NCBI RefSeq assembly: GCF_020736365.1
Contig: NZ_CP085988.1
Coordinates: 1-64,000 of the forward strand
Reading direction: 5' to 3'
Source: Clostridium sp. M62/1
GTDB lineage: Bacteria > Bacillota > Clostridia > Lachnospirales > Lachnospiraceae
DNA: 64,000 nucleotides
The position numbers and the translations under genes were made by a program. Below, piece by piece: positions 14,133-36,512 of this stretch. Each line of letters begins with the position of its first letter. The first letter of the stretch is position 1. The notes beneath the pieces were generated by a model, which saw only the letters and a list, made by a program, of their open reading frames with translations, ran no database searches and was not told where the DNA came from.

Positions 14133-15230
14133 ATGGCAAATTTTGACCTCACCAATCTGGCAGTAAAAATGATCTGCCCGAACAACGTCGTCAAGACAGA
14201 CGACACCGATCTCCCTTCCGTTCTGGTGTATATCCCGAAGTTTAAGAACTCGGACGTACTCACCGGCGGAAATGACAGCACCCACCCGGCCTTTATCGTC
14301 AACGGCGTGGAAATCCCCGGCTTTTACTACGGCAAGTATCAGGCCAAGGTTTACAACTCCGTAGCGTACAGCCTGCCGGGCGAAGATCCGACCGCAAGTA
14401 TCAACTTCGACACCGCACGCGCACGCTGCGAGGCCAAGGGCGCAGGCTGGCACCTGAGCACTAACGCAGAATGGGCCGCGATCGCTCTCTGGTGCAAGAA
14501 AAACGGCTTCCTCCCGTATGGTAACAACAACTACGGCAAAGACAGCCGCGAAAGTAATTACAAAGCCGCGCCGAGCTACTACGAAAGCGGCAAGATCGCG
14601 AGAGTTGCAACTGGTACCGGCCCGATCTCATGGAGCCACGACAAGACCATGGCTGGTATCTGGGATCTGAACGGCAACGTGTGGGAATGGCAGGGAGGAA
14701 TCCGCCTTGTTTGGGGTGAGCTTCAGATCCTCGCAAACAACGACGCAGCCGATCCGGACAACCCTCAGAACGCAACGAGCACATGCTGGAAGGCTATCAA
14801 CGCCGCAGACGGCGCCCTCGTGGATCCTGAGAGCAAGACGACCGACAGCTCCGCCCATGTTTCCGGTAAAACCGTAAAACTGGACTATGTGAACAACAAG
14901 TGGACGTACTCTACTTCGATCACCAACGCCAAAGATGAAAGCCGAAGCTGCGCCTTTTATCAGGTTGCTGCCGACAGCTCGATCGGAGACGCTGCCAAGG
15001 TTATGCTGCGCGCTCTCGCCCTTCTCCCGGACTCTGACGTCACTACTGACGTATACGAGGGCGACTACATGTGGTGGAATAACGGCGTAGCCGAGCGCTG
15101 CGTGTTTCGCGGGGGCCGCTGGTACTCCGGTGCGAGCGCTGGTGTGTTCTACCTCGGCGGCCACAACTCCCGCGGCGGTGTGGGCACGGGCCTCGGCTTC
15201 CGTGCCGCTTATATCCCGGAAATCCGGTAA
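14133..15230 (+). CDS. DGR target 1: C-type lectin / FGE-sulfatase-like variable protein
   Basis: 365 aa, ATG after AGAAAGGAGCACAAGAAA. Residues about 50-190 show the formylglycine-generating-enzyme-like lectin fold used by many DGR targets: GFYYGKYQA, 'CEAKGAGWHLSTNAEWAAIA', 'GIWDLNGNVWEW'. The last ~45 residues are the variable repeat (FRGGRWYSGASAGVFYL ... GFRAAY) and end 7 codons after it. As the last tail gene it is probably the receptor-binding tip of the tail fibre. Diversification of its surface residues would alter host recognition. Confidence 0.92.
   Translation: MANFDLTNLAVKMICPNNVVKTDDTDLPSVLVYIPKFKNSDVLTGGNDSTHPAFIVNGVEIPGFYYGKYQAKVYNSVAYSLPGEDPTASINFDTARARCEAKGAGWHLSTNAEWAAIALWCKKNGFLPYGNNNYGKDSRESNYKAAPSYYESGKIARVATGTGPISWSHDKTMAGIWDLNGNVWEWQGGIRLVWGELQILANNDAADPDNPQNATSTCWKAINAADGALVDPESKTTDSSAHVSGKTVKLDYVNNKWTYSTSITNAKDESRSCAFYQVAADSSIGDAAKVMLRALALLPDSDVTTDVYEGDYMWWNNGVAERCVFRGGRWYSGASAGVFYLGGHNSRGGVGTGLGFRAAYIPEIR
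15095..15209 (+). other. DGR variable repeat 1 (VR1)
   Basis: 115 bp aligned without gaps to the template at 16261-16375. It has 18 differences, all at the 25 template adenines (A to G, C or T), by hand count. Both ends of the block are A-free and identical to the template, including the last 15 bases, where homing would start. Confidence 0.95.
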
Positions 15231-15254
15231 TCTGGCAATCTGAAAATCTGGCAT

Positions 15255-15279
15255 GAGGGTGGCCCACCAAGCCACCCTC
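15255..15279 (+). promoter_or_regulatory. Hairpin downstream of VR1
   Basis: GAGGGTGGC (15255-15263) pairs with GCCACCCTC (15271-15279), a 9-bp perfect stem with a 7-base loop, 45 bases after the VR. Hairpins just downstream of VRs are known to promote target recognition in DGRs. It could also act as a weak terminator (CTACCCTTTT follows). Confidence 0.6.
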
Positions 15280-15301
15280 TACCCTTTTAAGGAGTAACAA
15301 C

Positions 15302-15646
15302 ATGGACAACTTACAACTGCGGCAGCGTATCGTTCGGAGCATGATCCGGGTGAGCGAACGCACCGCAAATATGAGAAAACCCGAAAAATTCGAGTATCGC
15401 AAGCACATGACGGCGGCGTTCATGGATATGCTGGAGCTCTGCATTGAGGCCAACCGGGCCAGAGGCTCGCGCCGGGTAGAACTCCAGAACAAAATGGACA
15501 CCAAGCTGGACGTGCTGCGCTCTCTCGTAGACACGGCAGTTTCTCCGGAGGATCGCCTGATCTCTCCGGGGCTCCACGAAATATGGAGCAAGGAGCTGAA
15601 CGAAATCGGGCGTATGCTCGGCGGCTGGAAAAAGTCGAACGAGTAA
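15302..15646 (+). CDS. avd: DGR accessory variability determinant, copy 1
   Basis: 114 aa, ATG after AAGGAGTAACAAC. Basic, all-helical protein (RQRIVRSMIRVSERTANM, KLDVLRSLVDTAVS) of the length and location typical of Avd, the pentameric RNA-binding partner of the DGR reverse transcriptase that is needed for template-RNA-primed cDNA synthesis. Identical in sequence to copy 2; two avd copies in one cassette are unusual. Confidence 0.88.
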   Translation: MDNLQLRQRIVRSMIRVSERTANMRKPEKFEYRKHMTAAFMDMLELCIEANRARGSRRVELQNKMDTKLDVLRSLVDTAVSPEDRLISPGLHEIWSKELNEIGRMLGGWKKSNE

Positions 15647-15677
15647 AGCCCGTGGGGAATGTGTCGAGATAAAGGAG

Positions 15678-15792
15678 GCGCTGCGTGTTTCGCGGGGGCC
15701 TCTGGCCCAACGGTGCGTCCGCTGGTGTGTTCTGCCTCAGCGGCATCGACTCCCGCAGCTGTGTGGGCACGTACCTCGGCTTCCGTGCCGCT
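15678..15792 (+). other. Stranded variable repeat (VR/TR hybrid locus)
   Basis: 115 bp in register with the template, with 17 differences, all at template adenines. It also differs from VR1 at many of these sites. The left flank (GAATGTGTCGAGATAAAGGAG and upstream) is that of the template; the right flank is that of VR1 to the base. It is not attached to a target gene. Confidence 0.92.
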
Positions 15793-15813
15793 TATATCCC
15801 GGAAATCCGGTAA
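15685..15813 (+). CDS. Possible 42-aa mini-target ORF from the stranded VR
   Basis: GTG six bases after AAAGGAGG opens a frame equal to the C-terminus of target 1 (MFRGGLWPNGASAGVF ... AAYIPEIR) and ends at the same TAA. The ribosome site comes from the template's left flank. If translated, it would be a free variable lectin tail. It may equally be untranslated debris of the duplication. Confidence 0.3.
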   Translation: MFRGGLWPNGASAGVFCLSGIDSRSCVGTYLGFRAAYIPEIR

Positions 15814-15837
15814 TCTGGCAATCTGAAAATCTGGCAT

Positions 15838-15862
15838 GAGGGTGGCCCACCAAGCCACCCTC
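15838..15862 (+). promoter_or_regulatory. Hairpin downstream of the stranded VR
   Basis: Exact copy, 583 bp on, of the hairpin at 15255-15279. The stranded VR therefore keeps both the A-free 3' end and the downstream hairpin of a homing target. Confidence 0.6.
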
Positions 15863-15884
15863 TACCCTTTTAAGGAGTAACAAC

Positions 15885-16229
15885 ATGGACAACTTACAAC
15901 TGCGGCAGCGTATCGTTCGGAGCATGATCCGGGTGAGCGAACGCACCGCAAATATGAGAAAACCCGAAAAATTCGAGTATCGCAAGCACATGACGGCGGC
16001 GTTCATGGATATGCTGGAGCTCTGCATTGAGGCCAACCGGGCCAGAGGCTCGCGCCGGGTAGAACTCCAGAACAAAATGGACACCAAGCTGGACGTGCTG
16101 CGCTCTCTCGTAGACACGGCAGTTTCTCCGGAGGATCGCCTGATCTCTCCGGGGCTCCACGAAATATGGAGCAAGGAGCTGAACGAAATCGGGCGTATGC
16201 TCGGCGGCTGGAAAAAGTCGAACGAGTAA
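15885..16229 (+). CDS. avd: DGR accessory variability determinant, copy 2
   Basis: 114 aa, identical to the protein at 15302-15646 with the same ribosome site. It directly precedes the template repeat, the usual target-avd-TR-RT order, so this is the ancestral avd position and copy 1 is the product of the duplication. Confidence 0.88.
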   Translation: MDNLQLRQRIVRSMIRVSERTANMRKPEKFEYRKHMTAAFMDMLELCIEANRARGSRRVELQNKMDTKLDVLRSLVDTAVSPEDRLISPGLHEIWSKELNEIGRMLGGWKKSNE

Positions 16230-16260
16230 AGCCCGTGGGGAATGTGTCGAGATAAAGGAG

Positions 16261-16375
16261 GCGCTGCGTGTATCGCGGGGGCAACTGGAACAACGGTGCG
16301 AACGCTGGTGTGTTCTACCTCAACGGCAACAACTCCCGCAGCAATGTGAACACGAACATCGGCTTCCGTGCCGCT
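16261..16375 (+). ncRNA. DGR template repeat (TR)
   Basis: 115 bp containing 25 adenines, arranged mostly as AAC codons in the target frame (for example GGCAACTGGAACAACGGTG). This is the classic template design, because adenine mutagenesis of AAC reaches many residues without making stops. It is transcribed toward the reverse transcriptase. AAAGGAGG lies just upstream, with a GTG at 16268 that opens a 165-codon frame through the template. Confidence 0.95.
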
Positions 16376-16656
16376 CTTGCCTTATTTGTTTATTTTCTGA
16401 GGGCCAAGGCCCAGCAGAAACACCAAGGCAAAAGGGATGCATTTCCCGGCCGACAAGGCCAAAGATACACGCTCGTGCTGCTCTGCCGGTGGAGGCCGCC
16501 GGGGACACCGAGCAAACCGCGCAGGCTGGCCGTTGTCTGCTATGCGGGCAGAAGGGGGATCCGGATCCTGCGGCGTGGCGACCGCAGAGGAAAGATCTCG
16601 CCGAGGAATGTCACAACGCGGGCCATAATTATGACAACACAAGGAGGAACGAGGAC
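16376..16656 (+). ncRNA. TR-RT spacer, likely structured part of the template RNA
   Basis: 281 bases with no convincing gene. Short GC stems are visible (GGGCC-AA-GGCCC near 16401; GGCC-GACAA-GGCC near 16448). In studied DGRs the RNA downstream of TR binds RT and Avd and primes cDNA synthesis. The assignment here rests on position. Confidence 0.55.
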
Positions 16657-17802
16657 ATGGATCCAAGAAACCAGCCCTCCCTTCTGGAGAGAATATACTC
16701 GTGGGAGAATCTTCTGGACGCATACCACGAGGCAGCAAGCGAGAAGTGGTACCGCAACGACGTGACCGCCTTCGCGGCGAATCTGGAGGAAAACCTGATC
16801 AGTATACAAAACGACCTGATCTGGCACACCTACAAAGTGGGCCGGTACCGGCAGTTCTACGTCCATGAACCGAAGAAACGGCTCGTCATGGCTCTGGGCT
16901 TCCGGGATCGTGTCGTGCAGTGGGCGATCTACCTCCAGACAAACCAACACCTCGACAATGGCATGATATACCACAGCTACGGGTGCAGGGTGGGAAAAGG
17001 AACCACCAGAGCAGCCGACCGGCTTCAATACTGGTGCACACTCGTGGATCGGAAGCCGGGCAAATGGTACTACCTGAAACTGGACGTATCAAAGTATTTT
17101 TACCGGGTGGATCACCGGGTACTGCTCGACATACTCCGCCGGAAGTTCCCGAACGAGGACGGCTACCTCTGGCTTATGGAAACAATTATAAATTGCGACC
17201 ATACACCCTTTGGACTGCCTCCGGGAAAGTCCGCCGACGAGATCCCACCGTCTGAAAGACTGTTCGAGGTAGGTATGCCGATCGGAAACCTCACGAGCCA
17301 GCTACTCGCGAACGTCTGCCTCAATGAGCTGGATCAGTATATCAAGCACGAGCTGAAAGCCCATTTTTACGACAGATACATGGACGACATGGCGCTGCTC
17401 TATCCTGACGCGGCCACACTGAACCGGTGGAGGGTTGCGATCGAGAAGTATCTGAACGAAGTCCTGCACCTCGAATTGAACAGCAAAACCACGATCGGAC
17501 TCGTCAAGCACGGGATCACCTTCGTGGGCTGCCGAATCTATCCGGGGTACCGCAAACCGACAGCTCAGTCGGTCAAGAAAATGAAGGCACGTATGCGCTA
17601 CATAGCGAAAGAGTACGAGGCCGGGCTGATCGACTTCGACGCGGTAGACGCGACCATGCAGAGCTACTTCGGACTTATGGGCCACTGCTCCACTCACGGG
17701 CTCCAGAAATGGATCGAGAAAAATATTATTTTCAAACGCAAAGAAATGGCAGACATAGAGCTGCCGCAGGAGGTGACACAATGGGAATTGAATCAGTTTT
17801 GA
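16657..17802 (+). CDS. DGR reverse transcriptase
   Basis: 381 aa. Start is ATG 16657, seven bases after the GGAGG-containing site AAGGAGGAACGAGGAC. The frame is open further upstream, but that part overlaps the TR spacer. Motifs: LDVSKYFYRVDHRVL (about 142-156, catalytic Asp143), GMPIGNLTSQ (206-215, the DGR-type form of RT motif 4), and YMDD (241-244) with the two catalytic Asp. It copies the TR RNA with adenine infidelity; the cDNA replaces VR sequence. Its end overlaps the next gene by 22 bases. Confidence 0.96.
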   Translation: MDPRNQPSLLERIYSWENLLDAYHEAASEKWYRNDVTAFAANLEENLISIQNDLIWHTYKVGRYRQFYVHEPKKRLVMALGFRDRVVQWAIYLQTNQHLDNGMIYHSYGCRVGKGTTRAADRLQYWCTLVDRKPGKWYYLKLDVSKYFYRVDHRVLLDILRRKFPNEDGYLWLMETIINCDHTPFGLPPGKSADEIPPSERLFEVGMPIGNLTSQLLANVCLNELDQYIKHELKAHFYDRYMDDMALLYPDAATLNRWRVAIEKYLNEVLHLELNSKTTIGLVKHGITFVGCRIYPGYRKPTAQSVKKMKARMRYIAKEYEAGLIDFDAVDATMQSYFGLMGHCSTHGLQKWIEKNIIFKRKEMADIELPQEVTQWELNQF

Positions 17803-23640: not shown

Positions 23641-23694
23641 TTTCGCATTTACTCTTGACTTTTCCCTTCGGAAAAGATAATATTAAATGCGAAA
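23641..23694 (+). promoter_or_regulatory. Promoter nested in two palindromes
   Basis: Outer perfect inverted repeat TTTCGCATTTA (23641-23651) / TAAATGCGAAA (23684-23694). Inside it: TTGACT (23655-23660), 17 bases, TAATAT (23678-23683). Inside the spacer is a second palindrome, CTTTTCC-CTTC-GGAAAAG (23659-23676). It precedes the separate HTH gene and follows the transposase. IS30 transposases favour palindromic targets, so it could be an operator, an attachment site or both. Confidence 0.7.
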
Positions 23695-23758
23695 GGAAGC
23701 GAAAGCCTCCGGACGCATTATTTTTTTACCTGAAAAGCACAGAAAGAGAGGTGAGAAC

Positions 23759-24007
23759 GTGCGAAACTACCGATATTTGACATTCGGCGACCGCGAGAAA
23801 ATCGAGACGGAATACGCAGCCGGAGGACGTCCGGCCGACATTGCGATCGACCTCGGCGTCCATGTGGCGACTATCTATAAAGAACTGAAAAGAGGCGACA
23901 CCGGCCAGCTCGACAAGAACATGCGCCGAGAGTATAGCGCCGAACTCGCCCAGCGCCGACTCATTGAGAGCTTTAAGTGCCGCGGGCGAAAATCCCCCAC
24001 TATATAA
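23759..24007 (+). CDS. Stand-alone IS30-type HTH protein
   Basis: 82 aa from GTG 23759 after AGAGAGGTGAGAAC. It aligns with the N-terminus of the transposase: YRYLTFGDREKIETEY ... IAIDLGVHVATIYKELKRG against FKHLSKSDRIRIETLN ... IAEVVGVHISTIYRELQRG. There is no catalytic domain. It probably binds related DNA and regulates transposase or the early promoter. Origin by duplication of the DNA-binding domain is inferred. Confidence 0.75.
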   Translation: MRNYRYLTFGDREKIETEYAAGGRPADIAIDLGVHVATIYKELKRGDTGQLDKNMRREYSAELAQRRLIESFKCRGRKSPTI

Positions 24008-24026
24008 AAAAGAAAGGAGCGACAAC

Positions 24027-24842
24027 ATGGCAGCATTACACGAAATAGCTCGGCAGTACGCCGAAGAAATCCGCGACGGTATAGCGTGGGTGATTATATG
24101 GAAAACTGGCCGAAGCTGGCACGCGGAAAGCGTCTGGCTCAACCAAGACTCTGACACCTTCGAGCTGGAGGATCTGAGCACTGCCACCGAAATTTTGGAA
24201 CAGGATCCGAACGCTGTCATGGTGAACGGCTACTACTGCGGGCACTTCGGCGAGAACATGACGATCGCAGAACTGGAGGCCGGTATTCTCTGGCACTACG
24301 AAGGCGGCTGCAATCTCCTGAAAAACTCGACGGCCTTCCCTCCTGAGCCGATACCACGCCCGGAAAATCTCCCGGCAGATATGCCATGGTACGGCAAGGA
24401 AACCACCGAGGAACCGGATCCATATATATTCGACGGCTACATGAGCGTCGAGGACTACGAGAAACGCCAGCAGCTCATAGCTGCGGATCAGGCGCGAAGC
24501 GATCCACTCCCGGACGAGTCGCCACCAGAACCTCAGCACACAGAGCTCACGATCCAGATCGGCCCACCTGCCGCCACTGCCCTGCTCGACGCTCTCGCCG
24601 ACGCAATGAAGGCAGCAGCTCGCGCAGTCCGACAACTCATGGACGAGCTCGCGGATCGGTTCCAGAAGTTCCAGCAATACGCGCGAAAAGCCGTGGACAC
24701 TTTTGTGGACTCCCTACTATATAGAGCCAACACCCACCCGAAATGGTGGCACCTATACAAACACGCACGGAAATGGAGAACCCGGAAGAAATACAAGCGA
24801 CTACTTATGAGGCAGCTATGCAGCAGGCTGGCCGCTGGATAG
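24027..24842 (+). CDS. Hypothetical early protein
   Basis: 271 aa, ATG after AGAAAGGAGCGACAAC. An N-terminal acidic domain (about 1-110, with WVIIWKTGRSWHAESVWL and VMVNGYYCGHFGE) is followed by a Pro/Glu linker, then a helical basic C-terminus ending in RTRKKYKRLLMRQLC. First gene of the long early operon. I do not recognise a family. Confidence 0.7.
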   Translation: MAALHEIARQYAEEIRDGIAWVIIWKTGRSWHAESVWLNQDSDTFELEDLSTATEILEQDPNAVMVNGYYCGHFGENMTIAELEAGILWHYEGGCNLLKNSTAFPPEPIPRPENLPADMPWYGKETTEEPDPYIFDGYMSVEDYEKRQQLIAADQARSDPLPDESPPEPQHTELTIQIGPPAATALLDALADAMKAAARAVRQLMDELADRFQKFQQYARKAVDTFVDSLLYRANTHPKWWHLYKHARKWRTRKKYKRLLMRQLCSRLAAG

Positions 24843-24853
24843 GAGGTGATCCC

Positions 24854-24952
24854 ATGAACGACTCGCGAAACCTAAGCGGGCCCGTACTCATGCCCGGCGC
24901 GACGGCTGCCGCTATGAAGTATGCCAAGAGTGCGGGCTGGACTGGAATGTAA
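24854..24952 (+). CDS. 32-aa ORF, probably the start of a zinc-ribbon gene
   Basis: ATG after ATAGGAGGTGATCCC, a strong site, but the frame closes after 32 codons with no recognisable fold. One extra base in the GGG at 24878-24880 would join it to the zinc-ribbon frame below and give a 59-aa protein. It may therefore be the intact N-terminus of a gene split by an indel error. Confidence 0.4.
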   Translation: MNDSRNLSGPVLMPGATAAAMKYAKSAGWTGM

Positions 24953-25032
24953 GCAAGCAGGCGGTGATCCCGTGGTACGGCTACAAGTGCCCGATCTGCC
25001 GCAGCAAATACAGAAAAGGAGCAAAACCATGA
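24856..25032 (+). pseudogene. Zinc-ribbon ORF without a start codon
   Basis: Open from 24856 to TGA 25030-25032 with no ATG, GTG or TTG. It encodes YEVCQECGLDWNVS ... GYKCPICRSKY, two CxxC pairs typical of a zinc ribbon, and its stop overlaps the next gene's ATG (ATGA), as in truly coupled genes. Most likely a real gene with a sequencing or natural frameshift near 24879. Confidence 0.5.
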
Positions 25033-26291
25033 GAAACGAAGTAATTTACGACAAAAACGGGCGCCCGGACATTATGGTGGTTTTTACCCCGTCCGAGCTG
25101 GGACTCCCTGACACCCTGAGAGGCCGCAAGGTTAAGGAATACGCGATCAGCAAGTACCAGAACACATTGATCGACGGCGTTCCGTACTCTCTCCCATTTA
25201 TGAAACCGGCTGTGAATATCAGCCACGACGAAGCAATCCGCCTCTGCGAGAGCAAGGGTGAAGGCTGGCACCTGATCACTAACGACGAGTGGGTGGCTCT
25301 CGGCTTCTGGAGCTGGGACAACGACACCATGCCGACCGGAAACACCGCAAGCGGCAAGAGTCACAGCCACCCGGAGCAGACCGGCACTACATACGAAGGA
25401 GGCTGCGGCAAGACCTTGACCGGATCCGGCCCGGTTCAGTGGAACCATGACGGCACGGCCTACGGTGTAGCTGACATGTGCGGTAACATCTGGGAACACG
25501 TCGGCGGCGTTCGATTTATGGACGGTATGCCGCAGGTGATCCCGAACAACGGCGCAGCCTATGGCGCGGATCAGTCCAAAGACTCGCCGGAGTGGGAGGC
25601 AATCTACACCGAGGACGGCGATCCGGTTTACTACAACGTACACGACGGAGAGATCACCCTCCAGCCGGTACACCCGGACGGCACCGACTACGACGGCGTA
25701 AAGTTCACGGATCTGGAAGCTCGCAGCGACATGGACGTGCCGGACAAGCTGAAAGATCTCGGCCTCTATCCTGCCGACGGCTACGAAAGCGACGAATACT
25801 TCTGGCTCGACTCTAACGGCGAGCGGGTTATTTTTCGCGGGGGCGACTGGAGCGACGGTGCGAACGCTGGTGTGTTCTCCCTCTACGGCAACGGCTCCCG
25901 CGGCCTTGTGGGCACGGGCCTCGGCTTCCGTGCCGCTTGCGTTCGGTTTATCTGCGACTCTGACACTCTGGACGATCTGGACTCTGATAAGAAGCAGCCA
26001 GAACCGAAAAAGCGTAGCATTTTAGCTCCGGACTTTATCGGACGGATCAAGCAGGCACTCGCCCGGCAGTTTCAGAAGCTCTACGAAGCCGCGCACGGCG
26101 AGGATCCGGAAGGCTTCACTGAACTGGCCGAGAAGGCAACAGACGAAGAACTTGCCAAGGCTGCAAAACTCAGCGCCACACTGGCTCAGGTGAACGCAGC
26201 CGTGGACATGTACGAGCTGACCGCTAAGCAGTTAAAGCTCGCAGCCACAACCTCGATCACAATCAAAACGGAGGTGAACGACCATGAATGA
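25029..26291 (+). CDS. DGR target 2: variable lectin-fold protein in the early operon
   Basis: 420 aa, ATG after AAAAGGAGCAAAACC. Same fold as target 1: YAISKYQNT, CESKGEGWHLITNDEW, VADMCGNIWEHVGGVRF. The variable repeat (FRGGDWSDGANAGVFSLYGNGS ...) lies at residues about 269-303 and is followed by a further 117 residues (charged linker, then helices 'FIGRIKQALARQFQKLYEAAHG' and 'LAQVNAAVDMYELTAKQL'). The helical tail may anchor or oligomerise it. It sits among replication genes, not tail genes, so it may not be a virion protein. Confidence 0.88.
   Translation: MRNEVIYDKNGRPDIMVVFTPSELGLPDTLRGRKVKEYAISKYQNTLIDGVPYSLPFMKPAVNISHDEAIRLCESKGEGWHLITNDEWVALGFWSWDNDTMPTGNTASGKSHSHPEQTGTTYEGGCGKTLTGSGPVQWNHDGTAYGVADMCGNIWEHVGGVRFMDGMPQVIPNNGAAYGADQSKDSPEWEAIYTEDGDPVYYNVHDGEITLQPVHPDGTDYDGVKFTDLEARSDMDVPDKLKDLGLYPADGYESDEYFWLDSNGERVIFRGGDWSDGANAGVFSLYGNGSRGLVGTGLGFRAACVRFICDSDTLDDLDSDKKQPEPKKRSILAPDFIGRIKQALARQFQKLYEAAHGEDPEGFTELAEKATDEELAKAAKLSATLAQVNAAVDMYELTAKQLKLAATTSITIKTEVNDHE
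25833..25937 (+). other. DGR variable repeat 2 (VR2)
   Basis: 105 bp aligned gap-free with template bases 16271-16375. It has 16 differences, all at template adenines. It lacks the first 10 bases of similarity seen in VR1. It keeps the same A-free 3' block (CTCGGCTTCCGTGCCGCT). No strong hairpin is evident just downstream. Confidence 0.93.
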
Positions 26292-27018
26292 GCTCCGGGA
26301 CATATTCGCGAAATACAAAGCAGTCGTATTTTTTGACACTGAGACAACCGGGCTCGAAGCTGAAAGCTGCCAGATCATTGAACTGGCAGCAATCAGAGTC
26401 GAGAAAACCGAACGGGGCACCCTCCGCATGGCCGACAGCGCCGACGTGTTCGTGAAACTGCCGGAAGGTGAGCGGATCCCTCAGAAGATCGTCGAGCTAA
26501 CAGGGATCACAGACGAGCAGCTCGAAAACGAAGGAATTACCGAGACTGAGGCTGCCGCTCGCTTCACTGAGTTGATCGGCGGCGGCCGCGTCCTTCTGGT
26601 AGCCCACAATGCACAGTTTGATCTCCTGTTTACTGCTGAAATGCTCCGGAGACACGGAAACGGTGGCCCGGAAGTCCTGAAAGCTGCCGACTATCTGGAC
26701 AGCCTAACCGTTTACAAAGACCGCCGGGCATATCCTCACAAGCTGGCGAACGCGATCCTCACCTATAAGCTGGAGGACAAGGTTCAGAACTCCCACAGAG
26801 CGATCGACGACGTGGCGGCACTGTTTGAGGTGTGCAAGGCCATGGACGCGGAACGCTCCGATCTTCTCAGCTATGTGAACGTGTTCGGATATAACCCGAA
26901 GTATGGAGTAAGTGGGAAACGGATCGAAAAGGTGGCCTACTGGCCACAGAATTTCAACAAATACATGCAGGCTCCGAGCTATACGCTCCCGGCCAAACTC
27001 AGACAAAGAAGGAGGTAA
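26284..27018 (+). CDS. DnaQ-like 3'-5' exonuclease
   Basis: 244 aa, ATG overlapping target 2's end by eight bases. DEDDh exonuclease motifs: VVFFDTETTGLE (residues about 14-25), VAHNAQFDLLF (about 107-117), HRAIDDVAAL (about 170-179). Likely proofreading or end processing during phage replication or recombination. Confidence 0.92.
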   Translation: MNELRDIFAKYKAVVFFDTETTGLEAESCQIIELAAIRVEKTERGTLRMADSADVFVKLPEGERIPQKIVELTGITDEQLENEGITETEAAARFTELIGGGRVLLVAHNAQFDLLFTAEMLRRHGNGGPEVLKAADYLDSLTVYKDRRAYPHKLANAILTYKLEDKVQNSHRAIDDVAALFEVCKAMDAERSDLLSYVNVFGYNPKYGVSGKRIEKVAYWPQNFNKYMQAPSYTLPAKLRQRRR

Positions 27019-27023
27019 CAGAA

Positions 27024-27779
27024 ATGCGAAGCAGCTCGCTGAAAGTATACAGCCCGGTGGAATACACCGGGTACAAAGAAAAAAGAAGCGGCCACCCGTC
27101 GGAACCGGGAAGCCGCACAGGCAATCGAAAAACCACGCGAAAGCCTAAGCCTATTTTATACCGGCTGCGCCGTTTTTGCAAGCGCCTGAACTGGAAAGGG
27201 ATCGGCGGGCTGGCAGTCACCACAGTGGTGATCGTGTTCGCAGTGCGCGGCGTCGTGGGTATGTTCTCAGAACACACCCAGACAAAAACAGCCCCGATCA
27301 CAACCAGCAGCCCGGCGGCCGAGGAATCTCAGCCCTACGTTTTTTACTACAAGGACGGGCAAGCCGTAAGCTGGGAGGACGTCACAGACGCATGGGCCGA
27401 AGAGGCAGGGATCCAGAAGCGCTACGCTCTCACTGACGCCGAGCGACTGGAGATCGCTCAGGTGCTCACGGCCGAAGCTGGAGGCGAACCCTTCGCCGGA
27501 AAGATCGCAGTAGCTCAGTGTATTCTCCAGACCTGCGAGGACGAAGGGATCCGACCGGACGAAGTGCTGCGCGTGTACGCATATAGCAAGCGCCGCCCGG
27601 AACCGACTCAGGAAGCCCTCGAAGCCGTGCAGGACGTGTTCGACTTCGGGATCGTGGCAACGACCGAGCCGATCAAATACTTTTACGCTCCCGCTCTCAC
27701 GGACAGCGAGTGGCACGAGTCCCAGATCTATGTAATGACCATTAACGGACACCGATTTTTTAAGGAGGCAACCGAATGA
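27024..27779 (+). CDS. Membrane-anchored SleB-like cell wall hydrolase
   Basis: 251 aa, ATG after AAGGAGGTAACAGAA. Basic N-terminus, one membrane helix (GIGGLAVTTVVIVFAVRGVVGMF, about 52-74), then an extracytoplasmic SleB/hydrolase_2-type domain (LEIAQVLTAEAGGEPFAGK, with likely catalytic Glu in TAEAGGE, about 145-165; IKYFYAP near the end). Unusual among early genes; it may alter the wall of the infected cell or lysogen. Confidence 0.78.
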   Translation: MRSSSLKVYSPVEYTGYKEKRSGHPSEPGSRTGNRKTTRKPKPILYRLRRFCKRLNWKGIGGLAVTTVVIVFAVRGVVGMFSEHTQTKTAPITTSSPAAEESQPYVFYYKDGQAVSWEDVTDAWAEEAGIQKRYALTDAERLEIAQVLTAEAGGEPFAGKIAVAQCILQTCEDEGIRPDEVLRVYAYSKRRPEPTQEALEAVQDVFDFGIVATTEPIKYFYAPALTDSEWHESQIYVMTINGHRFFKEATE

Positions 27780-28027
27780 ATAACGAAAACAAGCCAAGCG
27801 TGATCGCAGAGCTCACGGCTGCACTTGCCAGCATGGCGGAACGCGCCGCCGCTGCTGAGGCCGAAGCCGAGCAGTACAAGAAAAGCTCAGGCGAGTGGTA
27901 CCAGTTTTTCACCAGCAAGGACAAGGAACTGAGAGACACGCAGGCAGAACTCCAGAAAGCCCGCAAGGCTCTGGAAGCAAAGGAAGGAGAACAGAACCAT
28001 GGCAACGACAAAGAAAGCAATAGCTGA
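27776..28027 (+). CDS. Small coiled-coil protein
   Basis: 83 aa, ATGA overlap with the previous gene and 29-base overlap with the next. Ala/Glu-rich coiled coil through most of its length, with WYQFFTSKDKELRD in the middle. No family recognised. Confidence 0.6.
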   Translation: MNNENKPSVIAELTAALASMAERAAAAEAEAEQYKKSSGEWYQFFTSKDKELRDTQAELQKARKALEAKEGEQNHGNDKESNS

Positions 28028-28655
28028 GGCTGAGCAGGCCGCAGAAATCAAAGAAGCAATCGCAGCACCCACCACAGAGCCGGAAACTCCGGCCGTAACA
28101 CTGGACGAGCTGGAAAACATGGACATGAACATGTTCGACGCAGAGGAAACCGAAAGCGCTCCGCGCCCGGCATGGCGTATCACTGACGACGGCTGCGCCG
28201 ACTGGGCCTGCCGAAAAATCGCAGAAGAAAAGACCGAGCTCGACCGAATCACCGCACTGGGCGAAAGCCAGATCGAGAAGATCCAGCAGAGAATCGACGC
28301 TGCTCAGCGCAGATATGAAAACGGCACCCGTTTTCTCACCGGAAAGCTCGCGGAATACTTCGAGACAGTCCCACACAAGACAACCAAGACAAAACACAGC
28401 TACCGCCTTCTCTCCGGCACTCTGGTGAAGAAACTCGGCGGCAGCACCATGAAACAGGACGACGACACACTGCTGGCCTATCTGAAAGCCTCCGGCAATG
28501 AGGATATGATCCAGAACACTGAAAAGCCGAAGTGGGGCGAGTTCAAGAAACGCCTCGAAATTGTAGGCGGCCAGATCGTAGACAAAACCACCGGCGAGCT
28601 GGTGGAGGGCGTGCAGATCATTGAGAAACCGGACACCTTCACGGTGGACGTGTAA
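27999..28655 (+). CDS. Gam-like host-nuclease inhibitor
   Basis: 218 aa, ATG after AAGGAGAACAGAACC. An acidic 60-residue lead is followed by WRITDDGCADWACRKIAEEK, a long coiled coil (about 65-110) and a beta-rich end. This is the plan of Mu Gam / Gp157-type proteins that coat DNA ends against RecBCD/AddAB nucleases. It is next to ERF and SSB, which supports a recombination role. Confidence 0.7.
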   Translation: MATTKKAIAEAEQAAEIKEAIAAPTTEPETPAVTLDELENMDMNMFDAEETESAPRPAWRITDDGCADWACRKIAEEKTELDRITALGESQIEKIQQRIDAAQRRYENGTRFLTGKLAEYFETVPHKTTKTKHSYRLLSGTLVKKLGGSTMKQDDDTLLAYLKASGNEDMIQNTEKPKWGEFKKRLEIVGGQIVDKTTGELVEGVQIIEKPDTFTVDV

Positions 28656-28666
28656 GGAGGTAGCAC

Positions 28667-29497
28667 ATGGCAACAACCAAGGAAACGGCGGCCGCAAAGG
28701 CGGCCACCACCCCACCGGTACCGCTGACGCTGCAGCAGAAGTTCATCAAGTTGCGCGAAGCCGTTCCCTCTATCACCCAGAAGGCCCACAGCGACGGCGT
28801 AAAGTACAAGTTCGCGAAGATCTTCGACGTGTACCAGCTTCTCACTCCAGCCATGAATGAGTTCGGCGTCAATTTTGACATTGTAGGCGAGCAGGCCACC
28901 CGGCACAGTGAAAACGGGGATCCGATCTACTACTCCAACTTCACGCAGCACACCAGAAACGGCGACCGCATTGTCTGGGTGTACGAGGCCGACCTCACGA
29001 TCCGCTGGACAAACGCAGACAACCCGGACGAGACTCTGGAAGTTACTCTCCACGCAATCGGAACGAACGACGGAGGCCCGGACAAGGCCAAAGGCTCCGC
29101 GTGGACGTACTGCCTCAAATACTACCTGTTTGAGAAGTTCGGCATTGATCAGGGCGACGACGATCCAGACATGAGCGACCACAGCAGCGAACCCCCTCAG
29201 CAGAGCCAGAAACAGCACACAGGAGCTCAGAACGGGAACCGGCAGGGAAACACCCAGCCGCAGGCACAAAATGGCCAGACGGGGCGCTCAGGCGCCGCAC
29301 GACCACTCTCAGACGCTCAGCTCTCCCACCTCTACCGTAAAGGCGAGGACGCCGGGTACTCTCAGCAGTCGATCAACGAATGGATCCTGAAAAAATACGG
29401 ACAGCAGGATCCACATAACCTGACGCGGGCCCAGTACGACGAAGCCTGCGCCGCTATGGACAACGCAAAGCAGCAAGGAGGACAAAACAATGCTTAA
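28667..29497 (+). CDS. erf: ERF-family single-strand annealing protein
   Basis: 276 aa, ATG after AAGGAGGTAGCAC. Core (about 20-165): FIKLREAVPSITQKAHSD, YKFAKIFDVYQLLTPAMNEF, then KAKGSAWTYCLKYYLFEKFGI, the ERF signature. A Gln-rich linker and a C-terminal helical domain (LSHLYRKGEDAGYSQQSI) follow. It anneals single strands in phage recombination. Confidence 0.9.
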   Translation: MATTKETAAAKAATTPPVPLTLQQKFIKLREAVPSITQKAHSDGVKYKFAKIFDVYQLLTPAMNEFGVNFDIVGEQATRHSENGDPIYYSNFTQHTRNGDRIVWVYEADLTIRWTNADNPDETLEVTLHAIGTNDGGPDKAKGSAWTYCLKYYLFEKFGIDQGDDDPDMSDHSSEPPQQSQKQHTGAQNGNRQGNTQPQAQNGQTGRSGAARPLSDAQLSHLYRKGEDAGYSQQSINEWILKKYGQQDPHNLTRAQYDEACAAMDNAKQQGGQNNA

Positions 29498-29891
29498 TCA
29501 TGTGGAGCTTCTGGGCCGTCTGGCTCAGGAGCCTGAAATCAGATACACACAGAGCGGCACACCAGTGGCGAGCTTCGACCTCGCCGTGCAGGTACCGAGT
29601 AAGAACAAAGACGCCGCTCCGGACTATATCCCGATCGTGTGCTGGAGAGAACGCGCCGAGTTTTGCGGCCGCTACCTCTCCAAAGGCCGCCAGATCGTAG
29701 TTGAGGGCCGGATCTCCACCCGTAAATGGAAGGACGAGAAAACCGGGCAGAACCGCAAGGCCGTGGAAGTTGTGGCCTCAAACATTTACTTCGCAGACAG
29801 CAACGGAGGCAACGCAAATGGCAATCCTCAGCCCGCCAACAACGACGGATTCATGGACATACCGGACGACGGACAGCTTCCTTTTAACTAA
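29490..29891 (+). CDS. ssb: Single-stranded DNA-binding protein
   Basis: 133 aa, ATG after CAAGGAGGACAAAACA, overlapping ERF. OB fold: MLNHVELLGRLAQEPEIRYT, then PIVCWRERAEFCGRYLSKG and VEGRISTRKWKD. Ends in MDIPDDGQLPFN, an acidic tip ending in a PF pair as in bacterial SSBs that recruit partners. Confidence 0.95.
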   Translation: MLNHVELLGRLAQEPEIRYTQSGTPVASFDLAVQVPSKNKDAAPDYIPIVCWRERAEFCGRYLSKGRQIVVEGRISTRKWKDEKTGQNRKAVEVVASNIYFADSNGGNANGNPQPANNDGFMDIPDDGQLPFN

Positions 29892-29905
29892 TAACACCGA
29901 CCGAA

Positions 29906-29930
29906 GGACGACCGCCGGACAGACCGGCGG
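29906..29930. repeat. REP-like dispersed repeat, copy 1
   Basis: GGACGACCGCCGGACAG at 29906-29922, inside the hairpin CCGCCGG-ACAGA-CCGGCGG. It lies in the 86-base gap between ssb and the replication gene. Related copies at 30351-30367 (identical 17-mer), 35610-35633 and 38208-38224 (one to two changes) lie inside genes, each near a low-complexity segment or a gene end. Confidence 0.6.
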
Positions 29931-29977
29931 AACTCTACGGCCAAACCAGAAACAAACCACGAAAGGAGGTGCCGACA

Positions 29978-30844
29978 GTGGCATGGATCCAAATTCACCA
30001 ACAACTGAAAGACCACCGCAAGGTGCTGGCTGCTGCTGACGAGCTCGACATTGAACCGGCTCACATGCTCGGCCTGCTGATCTCGTTCTGGCTCTGGGCC
30101 ATTGATAACGCACCGGACGGATCCCTCGCTGGAATATCCGACAGAATGATCGCAAGAGCGGCCCAGTGGGACAAAGATCCGGAGGAATTTGTGGCCGCCC
30201 TGACCTCTGCGTCTCTGCTGGACGTAACGGAGGACGGCGTTCTGGAGATCCACGACTGGAGCGAGTACACCGGAAAGCTGATCGAACAACGAGAAAATGA
30301 GAAAAACCGTTCGAGAGCCCGCCGCGCTGCTGCTAAGTCAAACGACCGGAGGACGACCGCCGGACAGTCTGCGGACGCAAGCAAGAGCGACCAGAAAAAG
30401 ACCGCAGGTAGAGTAGACCAGACCAGAGTAGACCAGAGTAGACCAGAAAATAAGGGGGATACCCCCATAACCCCCGCAGCCGAGAAGCAGCCAAGCGCTC
30501 AGGAACGACGTTTCGCAGAGTTCTGGACTGCATACCCGAAGAAAGTCGGCAAGAAAGCAGCACAGAAGGCATGGGAAAAGGCAAAGCCCGACGCTGAACT
30601 GTTCGAGAAGATCATGCAGGCAGTGGCAACAGCTAAAACCTCGGAACAATGGCTGCGAGAAGGTGGCCGCTTCATTCCCAACCCGTCAACATGGATCAAT
30701 CAGGGACGCTGGGACGACGAACCTCTCCCACCTGCCGGATCCGGAAGCTATCAACAGCGACCGGGTGGAAATTGTGGAAAACCTGACACCATGGACGTGC
30801 TCGCGGGGATAATCGCAAACGAGGAAGGAGGCTTCGAGATATGA
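29978..30844 (+). CDS. Replication initiation protein (DnaD / replisome-organizer type)
   Basis: 288 aa from GTG 29978, seven bases after AAAGGAGG; GTG 29969 lies inside the ribosome site. N-terminus (AWIQIHQQLKDHRKVLAAADELD) is a winged-helix replisome-organizer start. A basic Gln/Thr linker (about 105-165) contains a dispersed repeat. The C-terminus has FAEFWTAYPKKVGKKAAQKAWEK and FIPNPSTWINQGRWDDE, common in phage initiators. Probably loads helicase at the origin with the next gene. Confidence 0.82.
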   Translation: MAWIQIHQQLKDHRKVLAAADELDIEPAHMLGLLISFWLWAIDNAPDGSLAGISDRMIARAAQWDKDPEEFVAALTSASLLDVTEDGVLEIHDWSEYTGKLIEQRENEKNRSRARRAAAKSNDRRTTAGQSADASKSDQKKTAGRVDQTRVDQSRPENKGDTPITPAAEKQPSAQERRFAEFWTAYPKKVGKKAAQKAWEKAKPDAELFEKIMQAVATAKTSEQWLREGGRFIPNPSTWINQGRWDDEPLPPAGSGSYQQRPGGNCGKPDTMDVLAGIIANEEGGFEI

Positions 30845-31524
30845 CAAAAGCAGACGCGGCTCGACTGGTGGCGATCGTCGTCACCGCCTACCCGAATTTT
30901 GACAAGTTCAAGGACGCGAAAGCAATCGAGGCCACGGTGAATCTCTGGGCCATGATGTTTGAGCAAGACGAATCCGGGATCGTAGCGCTGGCAGTAAAAA
31001 AACACATTGCAACAAACAAATGGCCGCCGAGTGTGGCCGAAGTCCGGGAGATCATGCTGGAGATCCAGCACCCGGAACTCATAGAGCCGGACAAGGCATG
31101 GCTGGCCGTGAGCGACCTCATGTACAGCGCCGGACAATTCAACCACGGAGATCTCTCCCGCCAGCTCCCGCCTCTGGTGGCGCGGGCCGTTGAGTCAATC
31201 GGCTGGACTTCCCTCTGGGAAATGCACCGCAGCGCATACATAGGCGGCAAGCCCGGCATGGATCGGGTAGCCTTCATGCAACAGTACACGCCAATGTACG
31301 AACGGGAAAAGTCTCGCAGCATGACACCGGCACAATTAACCGAGAAGATCGACAACGCGGCCGGATCCCTTCCGGACAAAGGCCAACGCCTGATAGAGTA
31401 CAGGGAAAGCGAACGCCGCAGGAAAGAGCAGGAAATGGAGGCTATCACCCGCGGTGCCCTCCGACTGGAGAGCCAGATCGTCGAACAAACGAAGCTCGAA
31501 CTCAGAGGGGAGGTGCTAGGATGA
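30841..31524 (+). CDS. Putative helicase loader/regulator (G39P-like N-terminus)
   Basis: 227 aa, ATGA overlap with the initiator. The N-terminal 75 residues (LVAIVVTAYPNFDKFKD ... ALAVKKHIATNKWPPSVAEV) resemble the helical domain of G39P-type replicative helicase inhibitors/loaders. The rest is helical and charged. Position directly after the initiator fits a loader. Confidence 0.65.
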   Translation: MTKADAARLVAIVVTAYPNFDKFKDAKAIEATVNLWAMMFEQDESGIVALAVKKHIATNKWPPSVAEVREIMLEIQHPELIEPDKAWLAVSDLMYSAGQFNHGDLSRQLPPLVARAVESIGWTSLWEMHRSAYIGGKPGMDRVAFMQQYTPMYEREKSRSMTPAQLTEKIDNAAGSLPDKGQRLIEYRESERRRKEQEMEAITRGALRLESQIVEQTKLELRGEVLG

Positions 31525-32411
31525 TCCTACAAGGTGACGCACTGGAGGAACTCAGAAAGCTGCCGGACAAATGCTGCAGCGTCTGCGTAACTTCACCACC
31601 CTACTACAACGCCAGAGACTACGGAGCTGCCGATCAGCTCGGAACCGAAAGCTCTCCGGAGGAATACACCCGCAAGCTGGTGGAAGCCTTCCGGGAAGTC
31701 GCCAGAGTCCTGAAAGACGACGGCACCCTCTGGCTGAATATCGGCGACAGCTACGCGAGGCATATCGAGGACGGAGGGATCAAGCGCAAGGATCTGATCG
31801 GGATCCCGTGGCTGCTGGCTCTGGCTCTCAGAAGTGACGGCTGGTACCTCCGGGCGGACATTATCTGGAACAAGCCCAACGCCATGCCAGAAAGCGCCAA
31901 AGACAGACCGGCAAGATCTCACGAGTATGTTTTTTTACTCAGCAAAGCGGCCGCCTATTACTACGACGCCGAGGCCGTCAAGGAGCTGGCCGTCGGGTAC
32001 GATCCGAAAAAGCCCGGCCGGAAGCGCGGCAACGCGAAAACCTTCCGCGGCGGCACTGCCTACACTCACGATCAGGCCAAAGCCAACAGCGCCGAGGTGG
32101 ATCGAGGCAGCCACGGGCTCCAGAGAAATGAAACCGGCAAACGAAACCGCCGGGACGTCTGGACGATCGCCACACGGCCATATAAGGGCGCCCACCTCTC
32201 CACGTTCCCGGAGGAACTGGCCAAGATCTGCATACTGGCCGGGAGCAAACCGGGCGACACGGTTCTGGATCCATTCTCAGGAAGTGGAACCACAGGAGCC
32301 GCAGCCCTCAAAGAAGGGCGGAACTATATCGGGATAGAGATTAACCCCGACACCTGCAAAATACAAGAGCAGCGACTCGCTGAGGCTGCTCAGGAAGGAG
32401 CCAAACCATGA
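31521..32411 (+). CDS. DNA methyltransferase (beta class, N4-C or N6-A)
   Basis: 296 aa, ATGA overlap. The N-terminal catalytic motif IV is TSPPYYNARD (about 28-37), and the C-terminal AdoMet motif I is VLDPFSGSGTTGAAAL (about 249-264). This order is that of the beta class, and SPPY suggests N4-cytosine modification. No restriction enzyme is adjacent, so it is an orphan that would protect phage DNA. Confidence 0.88.
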   Translation: MILQGDALEELRKLPDKCCSVCVTSPPYYNARDYGAADQLGTESSPEEYTRKLVEAFREVARVLKDDGTLWLNIGDSYARHIEDGGIKRKDLIGIPWLLALALRSDGWYLRADIIWNKPNAMPESAKDRPARSHEYVFLLSKAAAYYYDAEAVKELAVGYDPKKPGRKRGNAKTFRGGTAYTHDQAKANSAEVDRGSHGLQRNETGKRNRRDVWTIATRPYKGAHLSTFPEELAKICILAGSKPGDTVLDPFSGSGTTGAAALKEGRNYIGIEINPDTCKIQEQRLAEAAQEGAKP

Positions 32412-32917
32412 AACGCGGTGAAATTTATTATATCGAAAGCACATACCGGGAAACCGGAAGCGAGCAGAGAGGCGGCCGTCCTGCGGTGATCGTCTCCAAT
32501 GACAAGAACAACGAAAACAGCGAGGTTGTGGAAGTGGTATACATGACCACCAAACCAAAAAACGACCTCCCAACTCATGTATTTATCCGGAGCGCACTCT
32601 CCCCTTCTACCGTCTTATGCGAACAGGTAAACAGCGTAAGCGTGAAAAGGATCGGGACGCTGATCGGAAAATTGACAAAGAGCGAGCTCACAGCCGTGGA
32701 CTCTGCTCTGGCAATCTCTCTGGGGATCGACTTCATGGATCCGAAGCCCGCAGCCAAAGAAGCGGAGCATTTACTGGAAGAAATAAGCAAGCAGCCACTC
32801 CGGATCGTCCAGCAGGATCCAGACGTTGAAAAGATCAAGCTCGAAACTGAGCGCGATCTCTACCGGAATTTATACAATGAGCTGCTGAGCAAAACCATGA
32901 AAGGAGCAAGTGCATGA
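32408..32917 (+). CDS. PemK/MazF-type endoribonuclease toxin, no antitoxin
   Basis: 169 aa, ATGA overlap. KRGEIYYIES ... GGRPAVIVSNDKNN (residues 2-40), then VEVVYMTTKPKNDLPTHV and CEQVNSVSVKRIG match the PemK/MazF barrel. The C-terminal 60 residues are an added helical extension. No antitoxin-sized gene precedes it; both neighbours overlap it by four bases. It may attack host mRNA during infection or be held by an unlinked antitoxin. Confidence 0.82.
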   Translation: MKRGEIYYIESTYRETGSEQRGGRPAVIVSNDKNNENSEVVEVVYMTTKPKNDLPTHVFIRSALSPSTVLCEQVNSVSVKRIGTLIGKLTKSELTAVDSALAISLGIDFMDPKPAAKEAEHLLEEISKQPLRIVQQDPDVEKIKLETERDLYRNLYNELLSKTMKGASA

Positions 32918-33453
32918 GAAAAAAACTGGTTTACATCTGCTCCCCGTGCCGCGGGGACGTTGAAAAGAACATAGAAAAAGCCCAGCGCTACTGTCGCGAA
33001 GCCGTCGAGCTCTGGGACGACGTGATCCCGATCGCGCCTCATGTATATTTTACCCAGTTTCTTGACGACACCAAGCAGGAGGAACGCGCCGCGGGCATGG
33101 ACATGGGCCTCTCACTTCTGGCCATGTGTGACGAGCTCTGGGTTTACGGTATCGAGAATCCGAGTGAGGGCATGAGGAGCGAGATCGAATACGCAAAGCA
33201 GCACCAGATCCCGATCCGGGACGCTGCCGAGCTTTACAGAAACCGCGAAGCCGAAACACTTCCGATCGGTGACGCACTGATCGTTCTCCCTTCTCACGTC
33301 GGGCACCTGAACGGCGTCGCCGCGATTGAATCCACCACCGTGCGGATCAATGGCGAAATGATCTTAGACCTTGCGATCGAGCTCAGACGACACCCCGGCC
33401 ACGACATCACGCTGGAGGCCGACAAAGGCGCAGACTCGGAGGTAGATCAATGA
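32914..33453 (+). CDS. DUF4406-like nucleotide-binding protein
   Basis: 179 aa, ATGA overlap. Begins KKLVYICSPCRGDVEKNIEKA, then AGMDMGLSLLAMCDELWVYG. This is the Rossmann-like pattern of DUF4406 proteins, related to nucleoside 2-deoxyribosyltransferases. A role in base or nucleotide salvage is possible. The last ~60 residues are a separate beta-rich region. Confidence 0.7.
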   Translation: MRKKLVYICSPCRGDVEKNIEKAQRYCREAVELWDDVIPIAPHVYFTQFLDDTKQEERAAGMDMGLSLLAMCDELWVYGIENPSEGMRSEIEYAKQHQIPIRDAAELYRNREAETLPIGDALIVLPSHVGHLNGVAAIESTTVRINGEMILDLAIELRRHPGHDITLEADKGADSEVDQ

Positions 33454-34058
33454 GCTGGGACACGGTTCCGGGAAGAAATGGCGAAGGCTACCCGGATCCA
33501 ACAGCAAGCACCGCCCTTGCACGGGTGCAGCATAGCCAGAAAGGACTCCAGAGCAAGCGAGCCGGTGAACACTTCGAGAATATGATCACCGCAAGCCTGA
33601 ACTGGTACTGCGACAAGGGCGTGGCCTTCGTTGAAAAGACTCCGGAGCCCATGAAGCCACTCAGGAAGCCAGACCGACAGGGCCGTTTCCTTGCTTGCTA
33701 CACCAAAGCCGGACAGCCGGACTTCAAGGGAACGCTCACCGGTGGCCGGGCCGTGGTATTTGAGGCGAAACACACCGACAGCGACAAGATCGACCAGAGC
33801 CGCCTCACTCCTGAGCAGGTGGAAAGTCTGACACTGCACCACAAGCTCGGAGCTGCTGCCTTCATCATGGTGAGCGTGGGGCTGGAAAACTTCTACCGGG
33901 TACCGTGGGAAGTATGGCGAGACATGAAGCAGATCTACGGGCGCAAACACATGAAGCTCGAAGATCTGGAACCGTACCGCGTGCAATATATCGCCGGGAT
34001 CCTCAAACTGCTGGAAGGTGTGGAGATCGACTACACCGAGGAAGGAGGCACGCCATGA
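33450..34058 (+). CDS. recU: RecU-like Holliday junction resolvase
   Basis: 202 aa, ATGA overlap. Core: KRAGEHFENMITASLNWYC, AGQPDFKGTL (catalytic Asp), RAVVFEAKHT (catalytic Glu-x-Lys) and LTPEQVESLTLHHKLGAAAF. These are the nuclease motifs of RecU-family resolvases of Bacillota. It resolves recombination and replication junctions before packaging. Confidence 0.88.
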   Translation: MSWDTVPGRNGEGYPDPTASTALARVQHSQKGLQSKRAGEHFENMITASLNWYCDKGVAFVEKTPEPMKPLRKPDRQGRFLACYTKAGQPDFKGTLTGGRAVVFEAKHTDSDKIDQSRLTPEQVESLTLHHKLGAAAFIMVSVGLENFYRVPWEVWRDMKQIYGRKHMKLEDLEPYRVQYIAGILKLLEGVEIDYTEEGGTP

Positions 34059-34282
34059 AATGCGAATACTGCGAGCTCCGCAGAGTCGGGCCTTTTGTAA
34101 TTTCAAAAGCCTGCGCCATGCTGAGCGGAAAGCTCATAAACAAACAGACGGGCGAACCGTTAAAAATTTGTATGCACCACATGGCCTCCCCGGATCCGTG
34201 TATGAACAACGGGAACGGCTGCGGGCTCTACAAATCACAGAAAGGAGATCAAGCCAATGAACGACGCACTGCTGAGCAGTAA
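34055..34282 (+). CDS. Small zinc-ribbon-like protein
   Basis: 75 aa, ATGA overlap with recU and 26-base overlap with the next gene. Starts MKCEYCELRR and has further Cys/His (ICMHHMASPDPCMNN, GCGLYK), six Cys in all. It probably binds zinc; function unknown. Confidence 0.65.
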   Translation: MKCEYCELRRVGPFVISKACAMLSGKLINKQTGEPLKICMHHMASPDPCMNNGNGCGLYKSQKGDQANERRTAEQ

Positions 34283-34733
34283 AAACATGTGCTGGTGCAC
34301 TCCGCCGGATTTTTTCGCGGAACTGGATCGCGAGTTTCATTTTGAACTGGATCCGGCCAGCACCGACAAAAGCGCCAAGTGCGCGAAACACTTCACGCCG
34401 GACGACGACGGCCTAAAGCAAGACTGGGGGGGGTATTGCGTGTTTTGCAATCCGCCATACGGCCGAGCAATCGCCGACTGGGTACGCAAAGGCTACGAAG
34501 AAAGCCGGAAGCCCGGCACCACCGTGGTTATGCTCATTCCTTCGCGGACTGACACGGCATATTTTCACGACTGGATCTTCGGCAAGGCCAGCGAGGTGAG
34601 ATTCCTCCGCGGCCGCCTGAAATTCACCGACGAGGACGGAAACGGCGAGGACGCAGCTCCGTTTCCTTCTGCCGTCATAGTGTGGCGGAGTCCGGAAAGC
34701 ACCGGGCGCGAGTTTGCCACATGGCACATATAA
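34257..34733 (+). CDS. Phage Dam-type DNA N6-adenine methyltransferase
   Basis: 158 aa, ATG after GAAAGGAGATCAAGCCA. CTPPDFFAELDREFHFELDP then VFCNPPYGRAI, with NPPY the adenine methyltransferase active site. The short length is that of the phage Dam family. Second of three methyltransferases in this operon. Confidence 0.9.
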   Translation: MNDALLSSKNMCWCTPPDFFAELDREFHFELDPASTDKSAKCAKHFTPDDDGLKQDWGGYCVFCNPPYGRAIADWVRKGYEESRKPGTTVVMLIPSRTDTAYFHDWIFGKASEVRFLRGRLKFTDEDGNGEDAAPFPSAVIVWRSPESTGREFATWHI

Positions 34734-34787
34734 AAGCACCAGAGCCAGCGGGGCCACTGCTCCGCCGGTTCAGATAAGGAGGAAACC

Positions 34788-35075: not shown

Positions 35076-35079
35076 GCAC

Positions 35080-35682: not shown

Positions 35683-35695
35683 GGAGGTCAATAAA

Positions 35696-36439: not shown

Positions 36440-36444
36440 TGTGG

Positions 36445-36490: not shown

Positions 36491-36512
36491 CAAACCAAAG
36501 GAGGACAAGAAC

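Follow-up and report, generated by a model that had tools for sequence, protein, structure and literature searches.

A prophage DGR with two identical avd blocks

The window analysed here, 64,000 nucleotides of a gut bacterium at the start of a 3.89-Mb contig (in an assembly of 3.92 Mb and two contigs), carries a prophage whose DGR has the order VR1-avd-sVR-avd-TR-RT, where sVR is a stranded variable repeat (Table 1). The cassette holds a DGR-type reverse transcriptase (RT), a template repeat (TR) and variable repeats (VRs) that differ from it solely at TR adenines, an accessory Avd, and a VR inside a target gene of receptor-binding type. Three 115-bp repeats (VR1, sVR and TR) recur with a period of exactly 583 bp, forming two tandem 583-bp units (15210-15792 and 15793-16375), and the 468-bp avd-bearing blocks of these units show no difference between them. 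The flanks of sVR are hybrid, of TR type on the left and of VR1 type on the right. Repeat spacing and block identity thus confirmed the two 583-bp units ending at VR and TR limits that the initial annotation had described, and sequence comparison confirmed its junction of the TR left flank with the VR1 right flank. By its sequence, sVR appears non-coding except for a possible frame of 42 codons, and no full-length target ORF surrounds it. Its right flank is of target type: the sequence, with its TCTG array (of putative function), is the one that also follows VR1.

Table 1. Features of the prophage DGR and related genes (window coordinates)
Feature	Position	Strand	Evidence or remark
Target gene 1, FGE/C-type-lectin-type variable protein, 365 aa, VR1 at its end	14133..15230	+	PF03781 2.3e-6 (FGE-sulfatase fold, hmmscan); counterpart Lagaffe gp26
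VR1, coding	15095..15209	+	18/25 TR adenines changed, 0 other changes
First 468-bp block, made up of the VR1 right flank, avd copy 1 and a left flank of TR type	15210..15677	+	identical to 15793-16260; 130 adenines
avd copy 1, 114 aa	15302..15646	+	bAvd PF22296, 1e-13 (hmmscan)
sVR: TR left flank, VR1 right flank	15678..15792	+	17/25 TR adenines changed, 0 other changes
Possible frame of 42 codons spanning sVR, GTG preceded by AGGAGG, putative expression	15685..15813	+	sequence reading
468-bp block copy 2, holds avd copy 2	15793..16260	+	identical to copy 1
Three TCTG, 8-bp spacing, right of sVR; putative target mark	15814..15833	+	sequence reading; same right of VR1, 15231-15250
Inverted repeat right of sVR, GC-rich with a stem of 9 bp; putative terminator or hairpin of the target	15838..15862	+	sequence reading; same right of VR1
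avd copy 2, 114 aa, without difference from copy 1	15885..16229	+	bAvd 1e-13 (hmmscan)
Template repeat TR	16261..16375	+	99% identical to Lagaffe TR
DGR reverse transcriptase; likelier start ATG at 16657	16489..17802	+	RVT_1 2.2e-19; translation
Target gene 2, 456 aa, internal VR2 25833-25938	24921..26291	+	counterpart Lagaffe gp40
ERF-family recombinase, candidate agent of exchange	28667..29497	+	PF04404 9.1e-14

The segment 15000-17800 recurs with 100% identity (2801 bp) at 63855-66655 of the same contig, and both copies of the cassette, one in a partial prophage copy at the contig start and the other in a full copy, carry the duplication. The contig starts and ends within the prophage: positions 1-23666 match 48860-72521, and the last 17.3 kb match 23665-40978. 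The prophage copies differ at 11 alignment columns in the first 3.8 kb and by one indel near the other end. Such contig ends would fit either a tandem prophage pair with a stretch missing between them, or a single prophage together with phage DNA in circular form. The phage end is fused directly to the phage start at window position 23665; the joins with the host lie at 3874602 and 72521, with a common AGTTTTTCCCG beside them. Adjoining this arrangement is an integrase gene that is labelled IS30-type in the Lagaffe record. The duplication is real as far as the assembly goes, and the two copies in it may both rest on the same reads.

Comparison with phage FP_Lagaffe

The prophage is 97.2-98.4% identical to Faecalibacterium phage FP_Lagaffe (NC_047911) in the three longest matches, in a comparison covering 42,177 of the 48,211 bp of that record, and has the near-collinear genome and high identity expected of a Lagaffevirus. 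Save for the duplication, the DGR of FP_Lagaffe has the same gene order, with two VRs at corresponding positions, avd and TR 99% identical to those of the window and an annotated RT 98.6% identical. It differs in having VR1-avd-TR-RT once, with a single avd and no stranded VR, and the comparison indicates that the duplication is derived relative to FP_Lagaffe. The Lagaffe block differs at 7 of 468 positions from the identical blocks of the window, so the duplication is probably recent, or its blocks were homogenised. At repeat position 87, TR and both VRs of Lagaffe have C, whereas TR and the three VRs of the window have T; we dropped this marker as a date of rewriting, its polarity against other relatives being ambiguous.

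The family of the window's host (at least 298 genera in the genome set), probably Lachnospiraceae, differs from that of Faecalibacterium. A Lagaffe-type phage outside the latter family fits a finding in the available part of PMC5883640, where cultures of Blautia hansenii are reported to contain Lagaffe virions. The same excerpt reports variable reads at the VR of FP_Lagaffe, and for Lagaffe_CP the portion of PMC11792537 at hand gives no variation signal in limited data.

Base changes in the variable repeats

TR contains 25 adenines in its 115 bp. Across this length VR1 is 84% identical to TR, from which it differs at 18 positions, and sVR differs from TR at 17, in both cases at TR adenines throughout (18/18 and 17/17); for sVR the probability of such a placement by chance is ~1e-14. 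VR1 and sVR differ from each other at 16 positions, again all of them TR-adenine sites (random chance of all 16 falling on those 25 sites, ~3e-25), and the rest of the 583-bp unit is without difference. These counts bear out the 17 adenine-site changes, in a set unlike that of VR1, that had been noted from the sequence at the outset. The alterations of sVR run from the first to the last adenine (repeat positions 12-98), and its 90 non-adenine repeat sites are all as in TR. In the 34 bp left of sVR all 11 adenines match the other copy. The 130 adenines of the 468-bp block are likewise the same in both copies, whereas sVR is altered at 17 of the 25 TR adenines.

At the 25 adenine sites, VR1 and sVR agree in 9. 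VRs of different genomes agree on average in 8.7 of 25 (range 2-15, 76 pairs). This baseline comes from 21 TR/VR pairs, sVR excluded, from which we retained the 13 VRs that have 22 or more of these adenines in their TR. Simulated at the base frequencies observed, the expected number of agreeing sites was 7.4, with a probability of 0.32 for 9 or more. By this measure VR1 and sVR resemble each other no more than unrelated VRs do, as if each had been written independently.

The initial annotation had concluded that one or both repeats were rewritten after the duplication, and had called the stranded repeat still mutating. The second statement says more than the data show: the cassette copies in the assembly are without variation, and the chance-level similarity of VR1 and sVR fits rewriting and inherited alleles alike. 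The first found no support as it was worded, since a crossover between two phage genomes with different, pre-existing VR1 alleles would suffice and would make later rewriting unnecessary. The left end of sVR mildly favours later homing to sVR, or its birth from mutated cDNA. Because sVR departs from TR at the first adenine, position 12, a plain crossover without rewriting would be confined to the first 11 bp, a placement expected in 11/115 of cases (about 10%, an estimate that assumes uniform crossover), and heteroduplex repair towards VR1 would weaken this argument. The adenine-site letters of sVR may thus stem either from DGR homing after the duplication or from the VR1 of the partner phage by inheritance.

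Flank signatures of variable and template repeats

Right of both VR1 and sVR we found three TCTG at 8-bp spacing followed by a GC-rich inverted repeat; the right flank of TR has one TCTG and no array. Phased CTG also occurs right of VR2 (window 25951-25986). The pattern extends to other loci, in a set from which minus-strand pairs and short flanks were excluded and in which TR and VR, assigned automatically, may be misassigned in a few cases: at least three TCTG were present in 71 of 120 distinct VR flanks, and the matching TR flanks had none (106/120) or one (14/120). TCTG was the top 4-mer of VR right flanks, with a mean of 2.07 vs 0.13 in TR flanks (54 representatives). At least three CTG were found in 43 of 51 representative VR flanks vs 0 of 51 TR flanks, where shuffles, which preserve base composition only, expect 2.4; in the VR flanks of these 51 representatives, 114 of 129 CTG spacings were 7 or 8 bp. 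Conversely, CAGA was found in 37/51 TR right flanks (9.7 in shuffled TR flanks) and 2/51 VR flanks. The loci were gathered by their likeness to the present cassette, for the most part to its avd, so we claim the CTG motif for the avd-type group alone. Among the ten entries listed by a literature search, no DGR paper contained TCTG. Phased CTG, mostly as TCTG, is a possible target-recognition element, and its presence gives sVR the look of a target instead of a template.

The BPP-1 DGR has a single avd. It resembles the present cassette in its avd-TR-brt order and in having target determinants just downstream of VR, and differs in that the hairpin lies within 24 bp of VR and that no CTG array is described in the available text (PMC3240598).

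Frequency of duplicated avd among related loci

Among the 200 loci listed (repeat fetches included), avd was present in 189, and two avd were found in the window's own alone. Collapsing loci by exact 120-nt avd cores left 148 distinct ones, 147 of them other than the window's. A second avd, and with it the avd-VR-avd-TR order that the initial annotation had suggested looking for in related phage contigs, was found in 0 of these 147 other distinct avd loci among those listed, some of which are ~3 kb long or end near the cassette, where a neighbouring avd could be missed. A bAvd profile search covered 391 genomes of the class, 33 of which had matches, with no neighbouring full-length bAvd pairs among the 45 matches listed beyond those of the window genome itself. 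The hybrid junction had 0 matches in an exact search of viral contigs, a collection that may omit very near relatives, and a genus search (8 genomes) found the whole cassette in the window's own genome alone. The duplication is rare in the surveyed loci. A full bAvd with an adjacent bAvd fragment in one genome (G579, locus L233) was dropped as a second case: the locus has no TR/VR pair, and we take it to resemble an unrelated four-helix gene.

The survey also returned other unusual arrangements. A genome of the window host's genus (G299:C3:51112-52840; L043, L247-L251) has a DGR with four differing tandem TR+spacer units before RT. Its VR has 7 mismatches to the second template, 6 of them at template adenines, and 21-25 to the other three, as if one template were chosen among several; the available text of PMC6642488 already describes DGRs that have two or more TRs. 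At L082:4353-5222 (IMGVR_UViG_2588253772_000001), three tandem TR-like units with a period of ~304 bp lie between avd and RT; units 2 and 3 are near-identical, unit 1 is different, and the upstream VR matches none cleanly (24-26 mismatches). At L058:6187-6420 (IMGVR_UViG_3300010163_001206), avd is fused in frame to the C-terminal end of RT, most of RT is missing, no TR was found, and a VR-type repeat is left at 5979.

In multi-VR DGRs one TR likewise serves several VRs, and gene duplication, cDNA insertion or transposon-aided recombination have been proposed as their source, according to the excerpts available (PMC3521204, PMC6642488, PMC10907252). Their target genes, as described there, are duplicated or separate; a tandem VR x TR unit that includes avd, with a VR lying outside any full-length gene, is not among the arrangements in these excerpts.

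Origin of the duplication

The account that we consider reasonably probable is that unequal TR x VR1 exchange in a Lagaffe-type DGR gave the order VR1-avd-sVR-avd-TR-RT, most likely as a neutral, unstable by-product. TR of one phage DNA copy would have recombined with VR1 of another, duplicating the 583-bp segment and producing sVR with its hybrid flanks. This may have happened in lytic or tandem phage DNA, aided by the ERF-type recombinase of the phage. sVR lacks an upstream target gene, but because the VR-marking right flank is present and the TR right flank absent, it would then receive homing instead of serving as a template. The arrangement should be unstable, since perfect repeats of 468 bp are expected to recombine away. 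VR x TR recombination had already been proposed in the initial annotation, and the VR/TR junctions and the state derived relative to one-avd FP_Lagaffe agree with it; the part that found no support as worded is rewriting after the duplication.

The phage has several recombination-type genes (ERF, SSB, RecU and Gam-like). Host RecA is expected to be poor on 115-bp repeats that are 84% identical. In the available portion of PMC3945230, which deals with Rad52-like phage recombinases, an Erf/Exo pair performed on a par with lambda Red whether the substrates were 100% or 78% identical, and was ~100-fold above the RecA pathway on diverged ones. The same portion gives a 100-fold reduction of phage recombination at 12% divergence (on substrates unlike a 115-bp repeat), which counts against plain exchange, as does the description of TR-VR recombination without a working RT as rare for the BPP-1 system in E. 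coli (PMC12875486, in part). The lack of a second example in the 147 other distinct avd loci listed also counts against the exchange account.

Rather unlikely, in our judgement, though a serious rival, is a cDNA-splinted birth, in which mutated TR cDNA would have bridged VR1 of one phage copy (at its IMH end) and the TR left flank or avd of another copy, one aberrant retrohoming event yielding both the duplication and a fully mutated sVR. This would account for the changes from the first through the last adenine and for the right junction at the VR 3' end; target-type flank features are present at VR1, and an origin of multiple VRs from TR cDNA inserted at several positions has been suggested in the accessible text of PMC6642488. 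Against it, the unchanged adenines left of sVR (0/11) and in the block (0/130) imply that the mutated cDNA must have ended precisely at the border of TR. The scenario also calls for two DNA copies and an uncommon result, and no described case of such a duplication was found in the parts of the literature searched. The same 130 unchanged block adenines led us to reject the idea that the whole unit came from a mutagenic cDNA extended through VR1-avd-TR. Quite unlikely, too, is a self-enlarging DGR, in which mutated cDNA or VR x TR exchange in phage DNA would copy avd in tandem and deposit, outside the gene, a VR already mutated and target-marked, a silent cassette that a single loop-out would install in the receptor-binding-type gene.

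We find it improbable that the structure is an assembly artefact, with two VR1 haplotypes of a mixed phage population wrongly chained. DGR populations can hold many VR alleles, the contig ends lie inside the prophage, and the first 3.8 kb differs from the other copy at 11 columns, all of which favour this reading. A false join would, however, be needed within the first 11 bp of the repeat, the length of the contig (3.9 Mb) suggests long reads, and the structure is identical in both cassette copies, though maybe from the same reads. Least probable of all is a selected arrangement, valued for extra avd dosage or as a decoy or reserve VR swappable by looping out a 583-bp unit: a VR1 x sVR crossover, with 468 bp of perfect identity alongside, would install the sVR letters in the target gene, and the non-adenine sites of sVR are unchanged (0/90), but the arrangement is absent from the 147 other distinct avd loci listed and perfect block identity indicates youth, not maintenance.

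Biological meaning

The duplication is probably ordinary in mechanism, a rearrangement of a known system. It also offers a natural experiment: sVR and TR have 468 bp of left-hand homology in common, yet there are 0 adenine differences left of the repeat. If sVR was truly written by homing, it would be the template or cDNA, instead of the point at which homology stops, that sets the left edge of mutagenesis. The initial annotation had further proposed that DGRs could gain VRs and avd copies in this manner, an idea that may hold and against which stands the count of 0 in the 147 other distinct avd loci listed. The locus looks like a natural trace of TR-VR recombination, a risk inherent in any DGR, and it points to one way in which VRs and accessory genes could increase in number.
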